A stretch of 64,000 nt of DNA, taken from the NCBI GenBank assembly GCA_037042915.1, contig CM073196.1, positions 3,100,001 through 3,164,000 of the forward strand, read 5' to 3'. Of the stretch, positions 4,302 through 59,784 are shown in pieces. A program made the translations under genes and the position numbers. The notes below the pieces were generated by a model. That model was not told where the DNA came from and did not search any database. It was given only the letters and a program-made list of their open reading frames with translations. This stretch comes from Auricularia sp. M13. Its lineage: Eukaryota > Basidiomycota > Agaricomycetes > Auriculariales > Auriculariaceae. The first letter of the stretch is position 1. Each line of letters starts with the position of its first letter.

Positions 4302-5053
4302 ATGTCGTCGAGCCCGCCCCAGGTCTCGTTCTCGGCCGACGTCCGCCTGCTCTCGTTCTGGGCCGAGCGCACCGGCCTCCAGCTGCCCGCGAGCTCAGAG
4401 GCCCTGGGCACGCCCTACGCCCGCGCCCACCGCTGGCTGCTCGCGCTCAAGAACGCGCTCGTCCAGCAGTTCGGCTGGCGCGAGTCTGCCGCTGCAAACG
4501 ACGGCCGCATGCTCTTCGCCATCGACATGCAGCAACGCTCCTCGTCGGGCGTCCCGCGCTCGCCCCCGCTCAACCTGTGCGTCCAGCCAGCCAGCCAGCC
4601 AGCCATGGTTACCGCGCCTATCAACTCTAATTTTTCTCGTTGCGCAGGATGCTGCCCAAACACCCGTCGTCCTTCTTCACGCCGGAGCGCAAGCTGCAGT
4701 GGCAAATGACCTTCCACGGCACCACCTTCTTCACGCTGCGGCACTCGTGCCCGCCAGTGAGTGTCCCCATACCCCGCGCACACACATACACACCCTGACC
4801 GCCGCGGACGCAGATCCAGGACATACTCTATCTGCTGCAGTGCTTAATCCCGGGCATGCTCGTCATCGCCAAGGTCGAGGACATCCCGCGCGAGGCCGTC
4901 TACACCACCTCGCGCGCCCTGCCGCCCGCAGAATGGGTCACCGCCCACCAGGAGATGCTCGTCGACATCTTTGGCGCCCAGCACTTCCGCCAAATATTCA
5001 AGGCCGCTTCCAACGAGCGCATGGCGTATCACGTCGACACCCAGCGCAGGTGA
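4302..5053 (+). CDS. uncharacterised protein, three exons
   Basis: I do not recognise the family. Exons 4302-4576, 4648-4756 and 4814-5053 join to 207 aa with clean GT-AG introns of 71 and 57 nt. The protein is globular-looking, without signal peptide, membrane segment or long low-complexity stretch. It has aromatic and Trp-containing patches such as LLSFWAERTGLQ, LQWQMTFHGTTFF and ALPPAEWVTAHQEML. Intron 1 holds a CCAG tandem run near 4583. The last codons end TQRR then TGA, but that TGA overlaps a possible donor (AG|GTGAAT), so a further 3' exon cannot be excluded. It is divergent from eIF2B-alpha and has a TATA box upstream. Confidence 0.7.
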
Positions 5054-7103
5054 ATCAATCCTCCCGAACGCAAAACCGCCCGCCCGTGGCGCCCCGAACC
5101 CGAAACCGAAACCGAATGCAACCGCTCGTGCTCGTCGCCCGCCTGCTGCTAATCATTATCACTGTGTTATAACACTTGTCCCGCCGGGATGTCGTGCTGT
5201 GTTTTTTTTTGGTGCACTCCTCGTCCTCCTCCTCTTCATACACTCACCCCCCGCATCCCCGCCTAATCTTGCCCTAGTTTCTCCAACCCTCATAGAAAGC
5301 TTACACCACCCGGTCTGGTCCTCCTAGTAGTCGTCTTGCATCCTCTCCTCCACCCCTCCTAGTCTTATCCCTCTGGCATGCATCCTTTTTTTATCCCCCC
5401 AATCCACCATCTCTGTCAAGCTGTATTTACTACGACCCATTTGCCCATCCCTCCATCCCGCCGTCCCCCGCCTCGCGCTCTTTCGTCCCCGTCGCTGCCA
5501 ACGTTGTTTTGATAGCAGAATATCACGCCCGCCATAGGCGGCTTTGCTGTCACCGTCTCTCTGTCAGTCAGTCTGTTGTGGGTGGAGGCAACGTCCGCTG
5601 TAACGAATGTATGCGCGGTGACACATGTGATCATCGTCAGGAGCCTCCTGCTCATCTCATCTCGTCTTCTGTCTTCTGGAGATCCATCGCCCATCACACC
5701 GGCTGAAGGCTAAGCGCCATTCAGTTCGCTTTTTTCCTGATCCCAAATTCCCAAATGCGCGGCGCGCCGAGCTGCCGGGGCGCGTTCTCCGCGGAGCGCG
5801 CCGCCACCAATTTCGCGAGGCCATGGAGACCGGCCTGCAATGCACATTGCAAGTGATGAGGAGGAGGGATGATCTCAGATCTCAGATTTCAATTCTTGTT
5901 ACTGTTAGTGTTACAGACGCACATGTCGGTGTCTGGGCCATGCCATGGCTCAAACTTCTGCAGCGAGGCCTTTGCGCAAACAGTGCAAATTTCGCATTCG
6001 CCGGTAAGGTTTAGGCGTCGACACTTCAACTGGACCCTGGCTGACAGGCGAACAACGACGGGACGCCCGCAGTGGACGTCCAAGTCGGTCCGGACCGTCT
6101 GCCCGGCGCGCGTGGTGACTAAGGACGCATATGGAACTCCAGTTAAACTTGGAGCGAGCGATGGCAATTCCCAGCTTCCTGCTGTTGGGCGCTCGGGGCC
6201 CCGACCTCAGCACGGAGGCGTGTCAAGTCGTTCTGCCACCAGTGAATCAGCCTGTCGTGGGGTTGGGACTTGGAAAGGTGACAGACTCGGATGCGGCAGT
6301 CTCATGCTCCAAGCTTAAGCGAGCAATGGCAATTCCCACCTTCCTGCTGTTGGGCGCTCGGGCGAGGTCAGACGACCACTGGCAGGGAGTGGGTTCATTT
6401 CTCAGCCTGTCGAAGGCTTGAGAAAGCAGTCTCAGGCTCCAAGCGAGCAATTCTCACCTTCCTGCTGTTGGGCGCTCGGGGCGAGGTCAGACGGCCGTTC
6501 GCAATGACTGGCAGTGATTCTCAGCCTGTCGCGGGATTGGGGAAGCAGTCTCACGCGACATTCTGACGTCCAGCCGTATCTCAGATCTGGCGGTGGACCC
6601 TCCGCTGTGTTGCCATACACGGTAATATGGGGGACGCTCAAGGCACGCTTGTTCCATGTTTCGAGGACGTACACACCCTACTTAGACGCTTTACATACTG
6701 TCCCGTAATCTCAGATCTGACTGTACGGGAGTGGCGAATCCGTTCCCACTGGCAGCGTACCCGCTATCCGCTGTATTACTTACTGGGGGCAGTAGGTATG
6801 AGGCTGGCGCTCGAGGATGCTTGTTCAGGTAGACGTTTTCCTGCCAGGGCTGGAGAACGCGAGGCTGAATGGCTGCGGGATCCTGAGAGCTTATTGACAG
6901 AATTGAGCCTGAAGCGCACCCGGACGGCGTGTGCTTCAAGTTGCAAAACGGGCGATTCCCACCCAGGGGGCGGGTGGGGGCTGGGATCGACGCGCGACAT
7001 GTTGAGGATGAGCGAGCTAAGGGAGAGTGCGATATGTAGGGGTGTCACGGGATCGCCCCGCGCGCGCGCCGATTATCGCCAATCGCCAATCGCAATCTTG
7101 CCG
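5054..7103. other. intergenic region with tandem repeats
   Basis: About 2 kb between two + strand genes. The first part is pyrimidine-rich, as expected of a 3' UTR. The middle holds the imperfect tandem repeat listed separately. Three copies of a CAGATCT-centred motif occur near 5876, 6582 and 6712. No spliced coding sequence was recognised. Confidence 0.5.
6151..6546 (+). repeat. imperfect tandem repeat, three copies
   Basis: A core reading TTCCTGCTGTTGGGCGCTCG recurs three times, preceded by GCGAGC(A/G)AT and followed by a run that ends near TCAGCCTGTCG. Unit boundaries marked by CAGTCTCA fall at 6297, 6427 and 6546, so the last two units are 130 and 119 nt; the first is longer and more diverged. 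Only the repeats are visible: no transposase or terminal inverted repeat was found. Confidence 0.8.
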
Positions 7104-9130: not shown

Positions 9131-10512
9131 ATGTCGCAGTGGCTGTTCGAGCTCGAACATCTGTACAAGACGCCGAGCCAGGACGAGGACCACAAGCTCA
9201 TTCACGATGAGCTCCAGGACCGCATGAAGGGCGTGGACTTTATGTTCCGCGTCGGCCTCAGCCTCGGCCTGTGAGCTGCCCTGTGTCTTCGCGCAGCGCT
9301 CCTTGGACTTACGGCGCGCGCAGCCCGCTGACGCCGCTGTACACGGCCGCAACGTATCTGCACCGGTTTTACATGCGGCATTCGCTCGAGGACTACAACT
9401 ATCACGTTCGTCCTTCGCTTATTGCTACACTGGCCCTCGGGGCCTGGCACACCCGCTGACCCGCCTGCAGGAAGTCGCGATGGCGTGCCTCTACCTCGCC
9501 GCGAAAATAGAAGAAACCAGCCGTAAAATCGCGGACACCGCGCGCATGGCCATGGTCAAGGCCCGCGGGCTCGACCCGGACAAGTACAACTTCAACAGCG
9601 ACGACGTGGGTCTCGGTTCGCGTGAATTAATACATTGCCAGTTAATTTCTGCCATTATTGCAGTCCAAACGCGAGATCGAGCGCTGGCAGACCAACATCC
9701 TCACGCGTGAAGAGATCCTGGTCGACACGCTCTGCTTCGAGTTTGTCGTGCGGCACCCGCAGACGCACCTCGCCCACATGTTCGCCCACTGGCCGCCCGA
9801 CCTGCGCACGAGCGCCGACCCCAACGACGACTTTATCCAGGGCGCAACCTGGACCGTGGCCAACGACGCGTGCGCTGCCCGTCACCCCACACTCGCCGCT
9901 CGCTCTCGCTGACCCCACCGCGCAGCTTCCGCACGCCCATCTGCGTCCTCGCGCCGCCCAACGTCGCCGCGTTCGCCTGCTTCATCGTCGCCGCGCACGT
10001 CCAGGGCCTCGGCACGCTCGACGACTTCCTGATCATGGCCAGCCAGGGCGCGGACGCGTGCGCGCGGTCGTACGCCGTCTGCGCGTGCGAGCTGCTCGAG
10101 GTGGAGTATGCAGACTTCGAGACCGTCATGGGTGGGCGCGCGTTTCTGCTGCTGCTGTCCATTGTTCATTGGAGTCACCCACGCTGACTGTCCTGGTGCG
10201 GTAGACTGCATGACGCTGCTGCGCGATTACTACGCGTCCACGCTCGAGCAGGCAGGCCGGTACGCGTTCATAGAGGATTTGGCTTCGGTACGCCCTGCGC
10301 GCTGTGTCGGCGCTTGCTGACGCGCCCCCCAGCTGCCCCTGCCTAACAGGGACACCAAGTTCTTCATCCCGTGCCCGCCCAGCGTGCTGCAAAATGGGCA
10401 CGCCAACGGCTTCACGAACGGCAACATGACGCCGCAGAGCGACGGCAGCAAGACGCCTGGCGCCTTCAGCGTCGGCGGGCTGTCGCAGGCGAGCACTGTT
10501 GATTCCTCTTGA
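9131..10512 (+). CDS. cyclin of the RNA polymerase II CTD-kinase type (cyclin K/T, Ctk2/Pch1-like)
   Basis: Regulatory subunit expected to pair with a Cdk9/Cdk12-type kinase that phosphorylates the polymerase II C-terminal domain. Exons 9131-9270, 9324-9405, 9471-9605, 9664-9869, 9926-10131, 10205-10287 and 10333-10512 give 343 aa. The start MSQWLFELEHLYKTPS is the W-F-x-L-x-TPS entry helix of transcription cyclins. The first cyclin box contains AATYLHRFYMRHSLEDYNYH and VAMACLYLAAKIEET; the second contains FRTPICVLAPPNVAAFACFIVAAH. The C-terminus is Asn/Gly/Ser-rich and probably disordered. Which of the Ctk2, Pch1 or cyclin K groups it belongs to needs a tree. Confidence 0.9.
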
Positions 10513-30047: not shown

Positions 30048-33000
30048 ATGTCGACCCAGACGGTGAACGAACGCTTTCTGGCAGACGCCAGCCCGCCGCT
30101 CAGCTCGCTCAACATTGCCGCCTCCTTCAACCTGCTCTCAGACAAAGAAAAGGCCTATGCGCACTGGTAAGAGCCCGCTGTATGCTGCCAGGCACTGCCC
30201 ATCGCTGACGGCGGCGGCGGCAGGATCGGCAAGGCATCGTGGGCGGGCGGCCGCATCATCGCCGACCAGGTCTCGCCGTACGGCACCAGGCTCTACGATC
30301 TCCTCCAGCTCGTCTTTGCCGACGAAGGCCGCACTACCCTCGGCGATGTCGCCACCCTCAAGGCCAAGTCCGGCGTCTCCGACGACGACTGGAAGCTCAC
30401 GCTCGAGTATGCCGCCCAGGTCAGCCTCAAATCCTTTGAATTTCTTCTTTGTGGCGCTGACGACGCAGGCACTGAGCAATCTGGGGAACTATCGGTGCGC
30501 GCGCGGGCGGCTATCATAATCCTCATCGCAATCTCATCGCCCAAAGCTCCTTCGGCTTCTCCAAGTTCGTCCCCCGCGTCGCCCGCGACCAATTCCAGAA
30601 GGTCGTCGACGCCTCCGTCAACGCTGCCGACGCCCGCAAGCTGTGGGATGAAGTGCGCAGCACGCCCCCCATGCGGCACGAGTAAAGAGTACTGATCGCG
30701 TGCAATGAATACGGCAGCTGGCAGACCACATCTATGCGCTCGAACCCGAGGCAAGTCTGCTCATCGGCGACCCCAACAAGGGCCACCTCTCCAATTACTA
30801 TCTCGGAGACGAGCCCTGCACCGCGGAAGAGGTTGCGCTCATCCAAAAGGCCGCAGAGCAGCTCAAGGTCGACGTCCTCAACACCCGGTGCGTCGATCGT
30901 TCCTTCCACTCTTTTTTTCGCTCACAAATCCATTTAGTATCCGCAAGCATTCGCCCAGCAAGTTCACCCTGCTAGTCGCCTCTGCCGAAAAGTCGTCCAA
31001 GTCGCACGACCTGGAGGTCGACGGCAAGAAGATCGAGCTCATTGTCGAGTACGGCGACTTCAGCGCCGAGCTGGCGAAGAGCGCAGAGTATCTGCGCGAG
31101 GTCCGCCCACCTCGCAATCGCAACCCATGGCCATATGCTGATTGTGCGGCGCAGGCGCTCAAGTACGCCGCGAACGACCACCAAAAATCCATGCTCTCGC
31201 ACTACATCAAGTCGTGCGTCCCTCCTCCCGCCCCGCACACCCCATACCGTGTACCCACCCTTCCACGCGCAGCTTCGAGACGGGCTCGATCGAGGAGCAC
31301 CGGAAGGGCTCGCGCGACTGGGTGAAGGACGTCGGGCCCGTCGTGGAGAGCTACATCGGGTTCATCGAGACGTACACCGACCCGTTCGGCGCGCGCGCAG
31401 AGTGGGAGGGCTTCACGGCCATCGTCAACAAGGACCTCAGCGCCAAGTACGAGAAGCTCGTCGACCGCGCGCCGGAGCTCATCAAGGTCCTCCCGTGGGG
31501 CGAGAGCTTCGAGGTCGATGTGTTCAGACGGTAAGCCGTCCTTTGCGTGTGGTTTGATTTGCTCATTCGAGATTGATCGAAGGCCGGACTTTACTGGTAT
31601 GCGTGTTGGATGCTGAACGCCGTGGGGCTTATGCTGACGATGTATAGCGTTGGAGATTGTGTCGTTTGCGACGCCTGGTACGTCGACCCGCGTCAACCGC
31701 GATTAGGTGAACCGTCCATTTACCTTCGCGCGGCCAGATCCCCCCGCCGGCATCAACATCCCTGTGCGTCCTCTACTGGACACGTTCTAATAATCTAAGT
31801 CTGACCCAATCTATCTCGCGCCTTAGAAGTACGCACCAGCCAGCGCTGGTCTATGCGCCCCAAAGCTAACGCGCACTGCAGCTACTACGAGATCCGCGAG
31901 AAGGACGGGTTCAAGAACGTCTCGCTCGCGAACATCCTCGTCGCGAACCCGCCGAACGAGCCCGTCACATTCGTCCGCCGTGCGTCTTTCCCCTACACTA
32001 TGTATCGCCATCCAATTTTTTTTTGGCTTATTCGGGACATTGGGACGTTTAGCCGAGCTGCACGAGCTGTACCGCAAATACGTGAGCACGGCGTTCGAGG
32101 TCCAGGTGGCGAACCACGAGCTGCTGGGCCACGGCACGGGCAAGCTCTTCTCGGAGGACGCGGACGGGAAGCTCAACTTCGAGCCGGCCAAGGTAGCGTT
32201 TCCCCGCATGTTGCCTTCGTATTTTTCGGCTGGTGCTAACGCGTTGGAAGACGATCAACCCGCTGACGGGCAAGCCGGTGGAGACGTGGTACAAGCCCGG
32301 CCAGACGGCCGGCTCGGTGCTCGGCTCGTGCTCCAGCTCGCTCGAGGAGTGCCGCGCGGAGACCGTCGCGATGTACTGTACGTCCAGTCCTTCTTTCTGC
32401 ATGATTTGTCTGCTGTCAGTGCTCATGCGTCCTGTACTTGACAGTGGCGGGCAGCAAGGAGATCATGGATATCTTTGGCGTGCGTTTTCTCCGCGCTTTC
32501 TGGGCTTGGAGAGGCTCATGACAGGCGCGTTTCTAGTATACAGATGCGCAAGTGCAGTCCGACTTGCACTACGTCTCGTTCCTCACCATGGCCCGCGCGG
32601 GCATTCGTGCGCTTGAGTACTGGGACCCCGTCGCGCGTAAGCACCAGCAGGCGCACATGCAAGCCCGGTCCGTCCTTCTCTCCCACCAACCTCCGCTTTC
32701 CCTCTTTTCTAACCTGTTCCTTCGCACACAATTAGCATGGGAATCACGCTCTTCATGATCGAGGAGAAGCTCGCCAAGCTCGAAGAGACGCGCGACGCGG
32801 ACGGCAAGCTGACCGAGCTGTACATCGCCGTCGACCGCGAGGCGGTGGAGAAGCACGGGACGCAGAGCATGGGCAAGCTGCTCGTGCGGCTGCAGGTGCC
32901 CAAGAGCATCGCGGACGGCGCCGGCGCGCGCGCGTTCTACGAGGCGCTCACCACGCCGCCCAAGAGCTGGGACGGCGACATCAGGGACTTTGTCATGTCC

Positions 33001-33175
33001 AAGCGGCTCGTACGTCTCATCCTCCCCCAAAACGCAAATATTGATGCGTTTTGGGTAGCCGCGCCGCAAGTTCGTACAGCCCAATACGGTGCTCGAGGGC
33101 GACAAGGTCGTGCTCAAGGAGTACCCGCTCACGTTCGAGGGCCTCATCCAGAGCTGCATCGAGCGTCAGATCTGA
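30048..33175 (+). CDS. DPP3: dipeptidyl peptidase III (M49 zinc peptidase)
   Basis: Cytosolic aminopeptidase that removes dipeptides from short peptides. Nineteen exons: 30048-30166, 30224-30419, 30469-30494, 30547-30652, 30718-30887, 30938-31100, 31155-31213, 31273-31530, 31583-31596, 31648-31677, 31738-31763, 31827-31828, 31882-31979, 32053-32192, 32251-32377, 32445-32479, 32537-32667, 32736-33009, 33059-33175; 696 aa, normal for the family. The zinc motif HELLGH is at 444-449 and the second ligand motif EECRAE at 501-506, both intact. The conserved AGINIPN-Y block requires a 2-nt exon (31827-31828, AA) between introns of 63 and 53 nt. Exon 9 is 14 nt. Confidence 0.95.
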
Positions 33176-33521: not shown

Positions 33522-35884
33522 CTAAAGAAACCCACTTCCAAAGCGCCTCGCCGCGCGCCCAAGTGGGAGGCGGGCTCCCGCGGTCGGAATCCTGCCCGGC
33601 AGCTGCTGCGAGACGAACTTGAACGGCCGGCCGGCGAGCGAGCCGCCGACGCGGTCGTACGAGATGGTGTTGTTGGTGACGGCGACGTCGCGCGTGTACG
33701 TGTTGCCGCGCGCGTCGAGGTACTTGAGGCTGTTGACGTTCGTGCCGTTGCCCGTGCGCCCGCCCGTGGGAAGCTGCCAGATGCTCCCGTTGGCGTGCTG
33801 CCAGGAGTTTGTCGTGGTCAGGATGCTCAGTGGGTTGGGGAGCAGGGCGCGGGTGTAGGTGTGGTCGAAGATAGCGGTGTCTGTGGGGTAGTTTAGCTAG
33901 GAAGAAGGGGAAGCTGCTTTAGGCGATGTGGGAGATACGTACAGCCTGTACCGTCGGGGTAGCCCAGGAAGTCTACTTCGACGGGGTAGGTGAAGACGTC
34001 GGAGACAACAGGAACGCCATTGTGCAGGGAGATGCTAGATCCGCTGCTTCTCTGCTTGACAGTCTATCCCGGACTTAGCAAGCGCCCCACTGAGCGGAGG
34101 ACTAGAGACTCACCTGGGTGTTGGCGTCGTCCGTAAAGACTTGGTCGTTTCTGAATGAGAGATCCTGCGACCAGTGCACCAGCGTCCTCTTGCCGCTGCC
34201 GGCGATAATCTCGGCTTCAATCGTCAACGAGCGAGACGCAGAGACCGTGACATTGACGTCCCCGTTCTCAGCCACATTTCCAGTGACCTTCGCGACGGGA
34301 TACGGGTCCGCCTTGTACTTGGTGATCTTGCCCTTAGTGGGCTTGGAGCTGCTGTCGAGCAAGACCTATCGCCATGCCATTCATTCCTTCAGCGGCTGGA
34401 ATTGCGTGGTTGCTAAGCATACCTGTATGTTCCCGCTGACATACCAGTTCTATGTACTAATCTCAGCGTCCAGAAGCCAGGAGGGCTGCAGGGGCGCACC
34501 TGATTAGTGGTATGGTCATCTTCGGCAGATATAATGTCGATGGTGATAGTATGGTTGAGCCCGTCGGCGAGCTTGGGAATGAATGGCGTGAGATCGACGT
34601 AGTAGCGCGGCAGGTCGAGAGCTCCGTATGCAGGGATGGGTCTGCACAGAACGCGGTATCTCAACTCCCGACTAATGTAAATTGGTCATGTTGCATACCT
34701 CCAAACGAGCGGATTGATGGCACCGGTGAAGAATACGGCCCAGGGCAGCGCCGAGCCCGCGAGCTGGCCGTCCACGAGCAGCCGGACCTCGCGGTACGGG
34801 CCCTTGGGCGATGCCGCGCCGGGAGGGAGCGTGGGGATGTACGCGTTGGCGGTGTCGAAATACTATTCGCCGTTAGTCGCCGGAGTACTGCTCCCCCACT
34901 TTCCCAAAGCAGGACGCACCCAGAACTCCTCATCCTGACTGTTTCCGGACGCGTACAGCTCGGCGAAGGCCTTGACTGAATTGCGTGGGAACGTGACCAC
35001 GGTCTGCCAAGCGGCGTGAGCGAGCTCCCGCGCCAGTTACGGTGCAAGAAGGGAGAGACGTACGTCGAGTGCCGGGGGGATCGAGACGTAGTTGGCCTGG
35101 TCCGGGGAGAAGTTGGACAGCGGTAAGATCACGTCTGCCGATTTGGCTGGCGGGTGGGCCGTGGTCGACGCGTAGTATGTGATGCTCAGGCGCACTACCA
35201 CCCGCACTCAGTGTCAGACGCGTCCCATACCATCGACTGTCATACGGCACGCACCGTAGTATTCTCCGGTTATGCCCTGCGAGGGGTCCACGATGTTGTT
35301 CAGGTCGAGGATGAGTCTTCCGGGCTTCGCGAAGAGCGGGGTGTACAGCGTCACGTCCTTGATGTACGTCCAGATGATGCCGGCCAGGGTGGGCTCGGGC
35401 GTCGATGTCCGCCAGACTGCAACCGAATCGCTTAGACTCAGGGGGCGACGCGAAGGATGTAAACGTACTTTCGACATTTTGGAACGAGATAGCGGAAAGC
35501 CTTCGACCTGTTCAGCGCGGCATTCCGATATATACATACGTGAATTAGATACTGACCTGTCATACTGCGTGCCATTCGAGGTCGCCGTCCAGTTGAGCGT
35601 GATAGCAGACCATGAGCCCGGCGCGCCACAGTCCGTCGCAGGCACATATTCGACGATTTCGGGACTGCATCCAGGCGCAAGCGATAAGTAACTGTACGGG
35701 GCACGCAGGAAGAAAACAGGACTGACTGGTAGTACGAGTTGGCAAAGTTGCGCTCGAGCAGCTGGTGCGTGCAACTCTGGACACCGGTCGGGACGACGGG
35801 CGGCTGCGTCACCGCGAAGTTCACGAGCTGGCCGAGCGCGGGCGCGGTGAGCGCGAACGCGAGCGCGAGGGATGCCCGCGACAT
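33522..35884 (-). CDS. secreted PNGase A-like peptide N-glycanase (amidase A)
   Basis: Predicted peptide-N4-(N-acetyl-beta-glucosaminyl)asparagine amidase A, which frees N-glycans from glycopeptides. Exons, read downwards: 35884-35727, 35664-35557, 35500-35469, 35416-35255, 35194-35064, 35003-34920, 34862-34699, 34641-34500, 34449-34423, 34365-34114, 34063-33943, 33880-33522; 579 aa. A signal peptide is clear (MSRASLALAFALTAPALGQ). Family blocks: IWRTSTPEPTLAGIIWTYIKD, LFAKPGRLILDLNNIVD, the strand with GEYYVRLSITYYAST, and INPLVWRPIPAYGALDLPRY. Several N-x-S/T sites support a secretory route. The acceptor at 35501 was chosen past a nearer AG because it restores RLSAISFQNVEIWRTS. Confidence 0.92.
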
Positions 35885-43416: not shown

Positions 43417-44729
43417 ATGGCGGCCGACGAAGAGCTTCCGTCCACGGAGATCATCACGCTCACGCGGTGCGCATACAGACGACCAGACCGTGTGGCGCGG
43501 CGGCGGCTGACACAGCGCGTGCAGCCATGTCCTCAGCGAGCAGATGCGGCTGGGCCCCGTCGCGACGGGCGACCTGACCTTCCTGCTCAACGCCATCCAG
43601 CTCACCTCCAAGTTCATCTCCACCAACGTGCGGCGCGCGCGGCTGATTAACCTGTGCGCCACCTTGACCTTGTTCATCGCTGCGTGTATGCGCTGTTGCT
43701 GACCGCCGCCGGCAGCGTCGGCCTGGCGGGCGAGACGAACGTGCAGGGCGAGGAGCAGAAGAAGCTGGACGTGCTCTCGAACGACATCATGGTCAACGCC
43801 CTGCGCGCGTCGGGCAAGACGGCCGTGCTCGTTTCCGAGGAGCTCGACGACGCCATCATCATCGACGGCCGCCACAAGGGCAAGTACTGCGTCGTCTTCG
43901 ACCCGCTCGACGGCTCGTCCAACATCGACGCCGGTGTGAACATCGGCACCATCTTTGGCGTATACCGGATTGTACGTTGCCGCCAACAAGCTCTGTGTCC
44001 CCATTGCCGCTGACGGGCTCCCGCAGAAGGACGGCTCGGAAGGCACGATCCAGGATGTACTGCGCCCGGGCAGCGAGATGGTCGCGGCCGGCTACACCAT
44101 GTAAGTTGACCCGCTTCGTCCAAGACCACCGGCTCCAGTCGCCCTCACGCAATCCAATTCGCGCGCTCTTCTCACACAAATCTAACCCTCCCTCCCTCGC
44201 CAGGTACGGCTCCTCCGCGAACCTCGTGCTGAGCACAGGCAACGGCGTGAACGGCTATACGCTCGACACGGCGCTGGGCGAGTTCATCCTGACGCACCCC
44301 AACATTCAGATCCCTCCGCGCGGCAAGATCTACTCGTTCAACGAGGGCAACAGCAAGTACTTCTACCCGCCGACGCTCAAGTACCTCGACTCGATCAAAT
44401 ACCCGCCGGGCGACAAGGCGCCGTACAGCGCGCGCTACATCGGCTCCATGGTCGCCGACGTGCACCGCACGCTGCTCTACGGCGGCATCTTCGGCTACCC
44501 GGACGACCGCAAGAGCAAGAGCGGCAAGCTGCGCCTGCTCTACGAGGCCTTCCCCATGGCCTTCCTCACCGAGCAGGCCGGCGGGCTCGCCACCACCGGC
44601 CGCGGCCGCATCCTCGACGTCGTCCCCAAGAGCATCCATGAGCGCTGCCCCGTCTTCCTCGGCAGCAAGGAGGACGTGCAGGACCTGCTCAAGTTTTACC
44701 AGGAGGACCAGGCCGCGCCTGCATCGTAA
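43417..44729 (+). CDS. FBP1: fructose-1,6-bisphosphatase
   Basis: Gluconeogenic enzyme hydrolysing fructose 1,6-bisphosphate to fructose 6-phosphate. Exons 43417-43466, 43525-43653, 43716-43971, 44027-44100 and 44204-44729 give 344 aa, the normal length. Motifs: [29 protein letters not shown] (metal-binding Glu), the metal and phosphate site [45 protein letters not shown] and GGIFGYPDD. The C-terminus keeps [17 protein letters not shown] and [14 protein letters not shown]. All active-site residues I can check are present. It is convergent with the Nur1-like gene. Confidence 0.96.
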
Positions 44730-58288: not shown

Positions 58289-59784
58289 TCAAGGATAAGG
58301 GAATGCTTGCGTGCAGTTCACAGGTGAGAGGAAATTTTCGAGGTTCTTCTGGAGCGCCTTGCGGAGGGAGCCCTTGGGGTTAGGGTATTGCTCGAGCGTC
58401 TTGTTGATGAAGGCATGGTAGACGGCGCAGTTCTGGGCGTGGGAATGGCTTAGCTCACATCATCTCACATCAATCAATATAGCGTCCAGACGTACCGTGT
58501 CGGCGAACTCATTCAGCGGCGCCGAATTCTCAACCCAGTGGAACGAGCCATCCGGGTTCTGGACGTTGGAACCGGGACGCACTTCAGGGTGCGCGCCGAT
58601 GAGAGTGCCGAGTTCAACGTTCAGGTCCTCGATGAAGAAGCCCCCGTCGCGGCGATGGAAACCGTCCGGGAACTTGTTCTCCTGGAGGAACCGGCGCGCC
58701 GTCTTCAGGTCAAGGTTCTTGTCGTTCTTGCGGCCGTCTACGAAGAACACGAGAGCAAACGCAGCCTCCGCGTAAGCAATCGGGAAGCGAGGAACCTCGA
58801 AGTAGAACGTGGGGTTGGTTGCGTTCGACTGAACGATACGCCTGTACCGAACTTCCGCGGCGGCAGTCTCGTTGAAGATGCCGCCACCGAATTCATGGCT
58901 GATGTTCGAAAACTGCGTTGTAGCGCACATCAGCTGTTGAGCCACAATCCACTACGCGGAGTGCACTTGCCTGCTGGAACAAGCCCTCGTTGAAGTCAAC
59001 ATTCGAACCGAAGTAAGCGTCCAGTCTCGTCATGCTCGCATCACCTGTCTAAAGTGTCAACTCCACCCGTCAATGGCCGGCGCCGCATTACCTTCGAAGG
59101 TGTTGTGAGTGCTGAGACCACCCGCGATGGCGGGCTTCGGTGGCTCTGGGCCCGTGAGGGGGGTGAGAGTGCCGATGCTCATCAGGTTCGTCAGATGGTT
59201 TCCGTTCACAAGCATGTTCGCGAAACTAGAGGTTCGTCAGCGTCACAGACACCTTAGCAAGCATCGGCGTACGTGACGAATGTAGCTAGGTTGTGACCCA
59301 TGTTGAAGCCTGCGTTAATTGATCAGCCTTGGCGCGTGTATGCTACGCCGGTCAACTCGCACCTTTCTCCGAGGCGGTGATGATCTGCTGTGGGGTGGCG
59401 ACTCCCGAACGAGGCAACCACTACGGAGCATAAGCGGCATGCGGGAACCATGCTGACAACTTACGCCGTGGTTTGCGAGTGTGTTCATGCCGGGGCAGGG
59501 ACCTAGAGCGCACGGTTAGCGATGAGAGAAACATGTAGACTAGTGTGCGCACCTCTCGCATCGCCCGGCCTGGGAGCAATGTACGGGTGGTCCTTGTCAA
59601 ACACCAAGCTTTGCCGGAGGTCCTTGATGGGAGGCGGCGGAGGGCTCGCGCCAGGGGTGGGGAAAGAACGGCCAAAAGCCTCGATCTCCTCGTCGGAACG
59701 TCCGGCGAGCGATTCATATGGCTTGATGCTCAGCGCGGTCGCCCCGATGGCGAAGAGACCGAGAGAAACGCTGGAAAGCAACAT
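58289..59784 (-). CDS. secreted heme-thiolate peroxidase / unspecific peroxygenase
   Basis: Extracellular peroxide-using heme enzyme that oxygenates or halogenates organic substrates (chloroperoxidase/UPO family). Exons, read downwards: 59784-59553, 59502-59465, 59420-59363, 59309-59273, 59225-59092, 59044-58971, 58912-58496, 58432-58289; 377 aa. A signal peptide is clear (MLLSSVSLGLFAIGATALS). The heme-ligand motif GPCPGMNTLANHG puts the proximal Cys at 80. EGD at 166-168 is the magnesium/heme-propionate site, and Arg233 with Glu240 (VPRFPIAYAEAAF) match the acid-base pair, with the same seven-residue spacing, as in Agrocybe aegerita UPO. This arrangement, with Glu and Arg, marks the long UPO group. 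Two C-terminal cysteines (NCAVYHAF, NCTQAF) may form the stabilising disulfide. Intron 6 begins GCAAGT. Confidence 0.95.

Follow-up and report, generated by a model that had tools for sequence, protein, structure and literature searches.

The dipeptidyl peptidase III (DPP3) gene of the basidiomycete Auricularia sp. M13 very probably contains a constitutive internal exon of only two nucleotides, flanked by two ordinary short GT-AG introns that would be removed sequentially (Table 1). The window that we analyzed is a stretch of 64,000 nt, C4:3100001-3164000, of a genome of 52.1 Mb in 14 contigs whose genes are intron-rich. Besides DPP3, the window has predicted genes with Pfam matches to PNGase A (33522-35884, - strand), fructose-1,6-bisphosphatase (43417-44729, + strand), a cyclin (9131-10512, + strand), and family 2 peroxidase (58289-58930, - strand). 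The predicted product of the gene matches the Pfam profile PF03571 at 720.4 bits, covering positions 1-548 of 548, and its translation contains HELLGH and EECRAE, motifs of peptidase family M49; profile match and motifs together place it in that family. All eight M49 matches reported for the genome fall inside this gene, and no second M49 gene was reported. Searches that find close relatives only gave 5 pattern matches among viral contigs (one scan) and 47 among contigs of prokaryote genomes (one scan, 207 aa of the protein serving as query), with no relative confirmed in either set. Among structures in the PDB, the product aligns best with 5yfb_A (E = 3.2e-272) and also with human 3fvy_A (E = 1.7e-153); 5YFB is described as fungal in PMC10454320, and the source which that paper cites for it has Armillariella tabescens in its title.

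Table 1. Features of the DPP3 gene (positions in the window) and of aldo-keto reductase genes elsewhere in the genome; slashes mark splice junctions
Feature	Location	Strand	Description
DPP3 gene (peptidase family M49)	30048..33175	+	696 aa encoded by 19 exons, with 18 introns; frame open along its whole length after splicing
DPP3 exon 9	31583..31596	+	14-nt microexon (PDFT)
DPP3 exon 11	31738..31763	+	26 nt; ends GGC ATC AAC ATC CCT (AGINIP), codon complete
DPP3 intron 11	31764..31826	+	63 nt, from GTGCGT to CCTTAG; GTCTGAC at 31799-31805 is the best branch-like site
DPP3 exon 12 (predicted)	31827..31828	+	two-nucleotide exon AA; with C31882 forms codon 390, AAC = Asn
DPP3 intron 12	31829..31881	+	53 nt, from GTACGC to CTGCAG; AGCTAAC, with its last base at 31870, is branch-like
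DPP3 exon 13	31882..31979	+	98 nt; starts C TAC TAC GAG, completing Asn390
Aldo-keto reductase L028	G000:C10:1000001-1010000, gene 4824-6309; exon at C10:1005926	-	predicted 1-nt exon A between 61- and 53-nt introns
Aldo-keto reductase paralogue L034			no intron at Tyr codon, AAT AAC TAC CAG
Aldo-keto reductase paralogue L031			single 55-nt intron within Tyr codon, TA/T
Aldo-keto reductase paralogue L030	C10:245750-246100	-	predicted 4-nt exon, AAT G/CCTA/C CAA; donor GTACGC after exon
Aldo-keto reductase paralogue L033	C8:137650-138130	-	predicted 4-nt exon, AAT A/ATTA/C CAG; donor GTACGC after exon

The reading frame depends on the two bases. When AA is omitted from the transcript, the frame shifts and a stop follows residue 548, while retention of intron 11, of intron 12, or of both leads to stops after residues 397, 450, and 397, respectively; AA is required for both the frame and the protein. 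A preliminary description of this DNA had placed the two introns, with their GT donors and AG acceptors, on either side of AA and had held that the frame breaks without it, and our re-reading of the sequence agrees with it to the base. The CTAAC branch site it named in the second intron is likewise present, at 31866-31870, with 12 nt between the branch A and the intron end. Intron 11 carries a branch-like CTGAC, absent from that description, with 22 nt downstream of its A. All 18 introns in the gene model measure 49-73 nt, and exons 9-12 (31583-31828), at 14, 30, 26, and 2 nt, make up an intron-dense stretch that leads into the substrate-binding AGINIPNY motif.

Usable spliceosomal sites lie on both flanks of AA, in keeping with a microexon. 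Against 110 reference introns from other genes, the total scores of introns 11 and 12 fall at the 17th and 53rd percentiles. For intron 12 both sites are middling (donor 45th percentile, acceptor 50th), while intron 11 combines a donor at the 67th percentile with an acceptor at the 5th; this acceptor is weak, yet those of DPP3 introns 13 and 17 score lower still. The donor hexamers of the two introns are common ones in the reference set, GTGCGT ranking first (22 of 110) and GTACGC fourth (10 of 110). The donors common in this genome follow GTRCGY rather than GTAAGT: in the window together with loci L010-L029, with DPP3 left out, GTGCGC and GTACGT occur 13 and 11 times and GTAAGT twice (n = 110).

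The codon assembled across the exon specifies a conserved residue. AGINIPNY is matched without insertion by the fungal chain 5yfb, the yeast chain 3csk, and the aligned human chains, and Asn390 aligns with residue 394 in the numbering of human PDB chain 5e2q_A, as counted by hand along the alignment; the earlier statement that this Asn is conserved to human DPP3 thus holds. In human DPP III, Asn394 binds the N-terminus of the substrate (PMC8518066; PMC9101112); the corresponding residue is Asn388 in the Bacteroides enzyme and Asn324 in that of Caldithrix (PMC5805324). Judged by sequence alignment, Asn390 of the fungal enzyme is the equivalent of this substrate-binding residue. Because that equivalent binds the substrate N-terminus, skipping of exon 12 or a change at codon 390 would be expected to be selected against.

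We wrote a semi-Markov gene model for this analysis in which exon length has no minimum. Seeded on the other 16 DPP3 introns, it placed 17 of the 18 exactly, the two focal introns among them; these two had been held out of splice-site training, but the spliced coding sequence had been available to the coding model. A first large-scale round of self-training added introns in non-coding DNA (783 introns, with 27 of 738 internal exons at most 3 nt long) and was discarded. Retraining used 200 kb of the same genome (of which 9,669 positions are N) plus the rest of the window, penalized introns more strictly, applied filters to their flanks, and kept 110 of 142 predicted introns, with DPP3 excluded from the final training data. 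The retrained model called 16 of the 18 DPP3 introns exactly, again including both focal introns; its two errors were at acceptors, one in intron 5 and one in intron 16.

We also enumerated every in-frame, stop-free model of the region 31738-31979 with one or two introns of at least 38 nt, GT or GC donors, and AG acceptors. Among the resulting 383 models (22 with one intron, 361 with two), the model with the two-nucleotide exon had the top score, 14.8 versus 12.6 for the runner-up, and it alone produced the conserved peptide AGINIPNYYEIREK. Since a lead of 2.2 log units in splice and coding score is modest, it is the protein evidence that decides between the models. Pfam M49 fragment scores were computed for seven of them: the Asn-encoding model reached 151.0 bits, compared with 138.4 for intron 31784-31881, 134.0 for 31768-31829, 130.8 for 31764-31891, and 120.0 for 31764-31903, the other two being given below. 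The donor at 31784 scored poorly among the enumerated models and was rejected.

To gauge how often such an arrangement arises by chance, we left the six outermost bases at either end unchanged while randomizing the interior by 20,000 mononucleotide and 20,000 dinucleotide shuffles, and we also examined 8,223 real genomic slices. AG-AA-GT at any score was found in 98 and 97 of the respective shuffles and in 63 of the slices; with an equal or better score it was found in 2, 1, and 2. When any two bases were allowed between AG and GT, an equal or better score was reached in 9 mononucleotide shuffles, 15 dinucleotide shuffles, and 10 slices.

The runner-up among the enumerated models removes a single 80-nt intron, 31764-31843 (GTGCGT...AGCCAG), so that the 38 bases at the 3' end of intron 12 would be translated and 13 residues would stand where the active-site loop has its Asn. 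It is the closest rival, stronger than the GC donor considered below, and does not appear in the preliminary description. In its favor, it uses the identical donor to the two-nucleotide-exon model, keeps the frame without a stop, and yields a protein of 708 aa. It would, however, insert residues at a place where the yeast, human, and fungal enzymes lack any, lose the substrate-binding Asn, and lower the fragment Pfam score to 136.3 bits; moreover, intron 12 has a good donor that would go unused, and its branch-like site and acceptor would end up coding. Whether as main product or as minor isoform, we consider it very unlikely. The GC donor two bases into intron 11, which the preliminary description had raised as an alternative, would define a single 116-nt GC-AG intron, 31766-31881, with Val replacing Asn. 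Frame and length would be kept, and 2 of the 110 reference introns do have GC donors, but this donor (GT/GCGTCC) scores -5.62, under all 110 reference donors, and lacks the otherwise strong consensus of the GC-AG class. With a model score of 2.4 versus 14.8, a Pfam score of 146.6 versus 151.0 bits, and a change at the substrate-binding residue, the GC-AG intron is scarcely credible. Any single intron of 116-118 nt would be an outlier in this gene, given that the remaining 16 introns span 49-73 nt; in the reference set, 6 of 110 introns are at least 116 nt long.

That a single assembly underlies our reading leaves room for a sequence error, by which the gene would have one intron here and two junction bases would be missing or altered in the assembly. 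Such an error would have to coincide with AA between an acceptor and a donor that are both good and correctly spaced, as happens in 1-2 of 20,000 shuffles, next to flanking exons that are both intact and conserved; a separate one-nucleotide exon of the same layout is moreover predicted elsewhere in the genome (see below). We therefore regard an error as most improbable. A further reading takes its cue from the AG and the GT lying only 2 nt apart, and from the documented existence of stwintrons in fungi: all 118 nt would be removed in two nested steps, at a zero-residue recursive site or from a stwintron. Excision of all 118 nt shifts the frame, however, and this reading has a very slight chance of being correct. 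A recursive zero-length exon, with AG and GT juxtaposed and nothing retained, does not describe AG-AA-GT, where AA is needed for the frame, and the residue-free removal that characterizes a stwintron would break the frame as well. The term recursive splice site in the preliminary description, taken strictly (zero-length exon, AG directly followed by GT), thus named the wrong class, as AA must stay in the mRNA.

For the two-nucleotide exon, its small size need not be an obstacle to splicing. Short introns are normally recognized across the intron, and introns 11 and 12, at 63 and 53 nt, would each be recognized in this way rather than across the exon, so the exon itself may not have to be defined as an exon. 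The earlier suggestion that it strains exon definition is accordingly of little consequence here, all 18 introns being of a size for which intron-wise recognition is expected. The 3' splice site of intron 11 and the 5' splice site of intron 12 lie 2 nt apart, a distance at which simultaneous assembly of two spliceosomes would hardly be possible, and from this spacing we infer that the two introns are likely removed one after another. Whichever intron goes first, the other would remain normally spliceable. With intron 12 out first, the acceptor score of intron 11 rises from 2.08 to 2.89; with intron 11 out first, the donor score of intron 12 falls from 5.34 to 4.72. These splice-site scores lean slightly toward removal of intron 12 first, short of a demonstration. 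Intron definition with stepwise removal was proposed by Guo and Liu for a one-nucleotide exon of Arabidopsis (PMC4674806), and the same source notes a 9-nt exon of potato invertase for which the downstream intron is reported to leave first. As to origin, exon 12 may have arisen when a second intron settled beside an existing one. Tandem duplication as the source of introns 11 and 12 was rejected; their observed similarity score was reached by 309 of 500 shuffles.

Exons of one nucleotide have already been published, both from plants (PMC4674806; PMC8831610) and from Fusarium (PMC12940212); the Fusarium paper adds that Arabidopsis, Drosophila, and human have known exons of 2-5 bp. DPP3 exon 12 is a rare but known kind of structure. 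The one-nucleotide exon of Fusarium CYP621A resembles it in being fungal, in placing a minimal exon in a conserved motif, in having been betrayed by a frame-breaking 'intron' of double length, and in restoring the frame; it differs in belonging to an ascomycete P450 whose orthologues span many species and which has RNA reads behind it, where ours has two nucleotides and is read from the DNA of one genome (PMC12940212). The plant exons, in APC11 (PMC4674806) and VPS55 (PMC8831610), are likewise ultra-short and required for the frame, although that of APC11, sited 333 nt from the start of a 422-nt sequence once taken as one intron, was established in RNA (PMC4674806). In P450 genes of Phanerochaete chrysosporium, a white-rot basidiomycete, small introns, of 45-55 bp, and microexons are likewise frequent, but the shortest exon given for them is 6 bp (PMC1184071). 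Fungal stwintrons also consist of two short introns that almost touch, and one has been explained by the appearance of an internal intron within the donor of an older, host intron (PMC5639578); in stwintrons, however, nothing between the introns is kept in the mRNA, whereas DPP3 keeps two bases.

Recursive splice sites, too, bring an acceptor and a donor into near juxtaposition and lead one to expect stepwise removal; classical recursive, or ratchet, points leave no exon sequence and are located in long introns. The titles and abstracts that our searches of the open-licence literature brought up describe no two-nucleotide exon in a fungal gene, and none describes an ultra-short exon in an aldo-keto reductase or in DPP3. 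Annotation software readily overlooks exons of one or two bases, with frameshifts or false insertions as the outcome, in DPP3 at the active site. Such exons mark how small an exon can be, and they speak against a need for exon definition in genes of this kind.

Applied to 264 kb, the retrained model predicted 57 genes, 190 introns, and 139 internal exons, and called two exons of at most 8 nt: the DPP3 exon and a one-nucleotide exon in an aldo-keto reductase gene, L028. The L028 protein matches PF00248 at 246.1 bits. Its predicted exon completes the frame GCC AAC TCT T/A/C CAG, encoding DTANSYQ with a Tyr codon built from three exons. This Tyr, five residues after the Asp, is presumably the catalytic Tyr of the aldo-keto reductase superfamily, and it is kept in four PDB alignments. 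The introns flanking the exon were outside the training set. Enumeration gave 32 one-intron and 1,046 two-intron in-frame models, and a single one of the 1,078 encodes DTANSYQEES, with a lead of 6.6. In 15 control runs with shuffled introns, exons of at most 2 nt appeared once and exons of at most 8 nt 11 times (mostly 7 nt), compared with 2 and 2 in the real sequence, the 2-nt cut having been chosen post hoc. Against shuffled introns only the shortest class, of at most 2 nt, stands out, and because the shuffled introns yielded 11 exons of at most 8 nt, model calls of 5-8-nt exons mean little.

We read the corresponding stretches of five close L028 copies in the same genome, leaving out L032, in whose stretch the motif was not seen. 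The remaining four carry no intron, one intron, or two introns at or next to the Tyr codon (Table 1). Across eight pairs of aldo-keto reductase introns we found no similarity beyond that of shuffles (the observed score was reached by 116 to 500 of 500). Since the introns of the copies lack similarity, the layout would either predate the intron sequences seen today or have arisen repeatedly. Nelson and Syed suggest the adoption of a cryptic exon to restore the frame (PMC12940212). The paralogue series is explained no less well if a second intron settled 1-4 nt away from one already present, a scenario close to a published proposal for a stwintron (PMC5639578).

Tentatively, and with more doubt than confidence, we suggest that the genome carries a whole class of exons of one to four nucleotides, each made when a second intron settles near an existing one and kept in active-site codons where a change of frame or residue is not tolerated; the paralogues would then be snapshots of such exons being made, shortened, and lost. 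This possible class is the part that we consider worth following up: with several ultra-short exons in one genome, and paralogues with zero, one, and two introns at the same codon, their origin and splicing order would become testable. In 10 more distant copies of the aldo-keto reductase gene, the Tyr codon, as read from the sequence, is uninterrupted; one of them, L035, has a single intron just before Val-Tyr.
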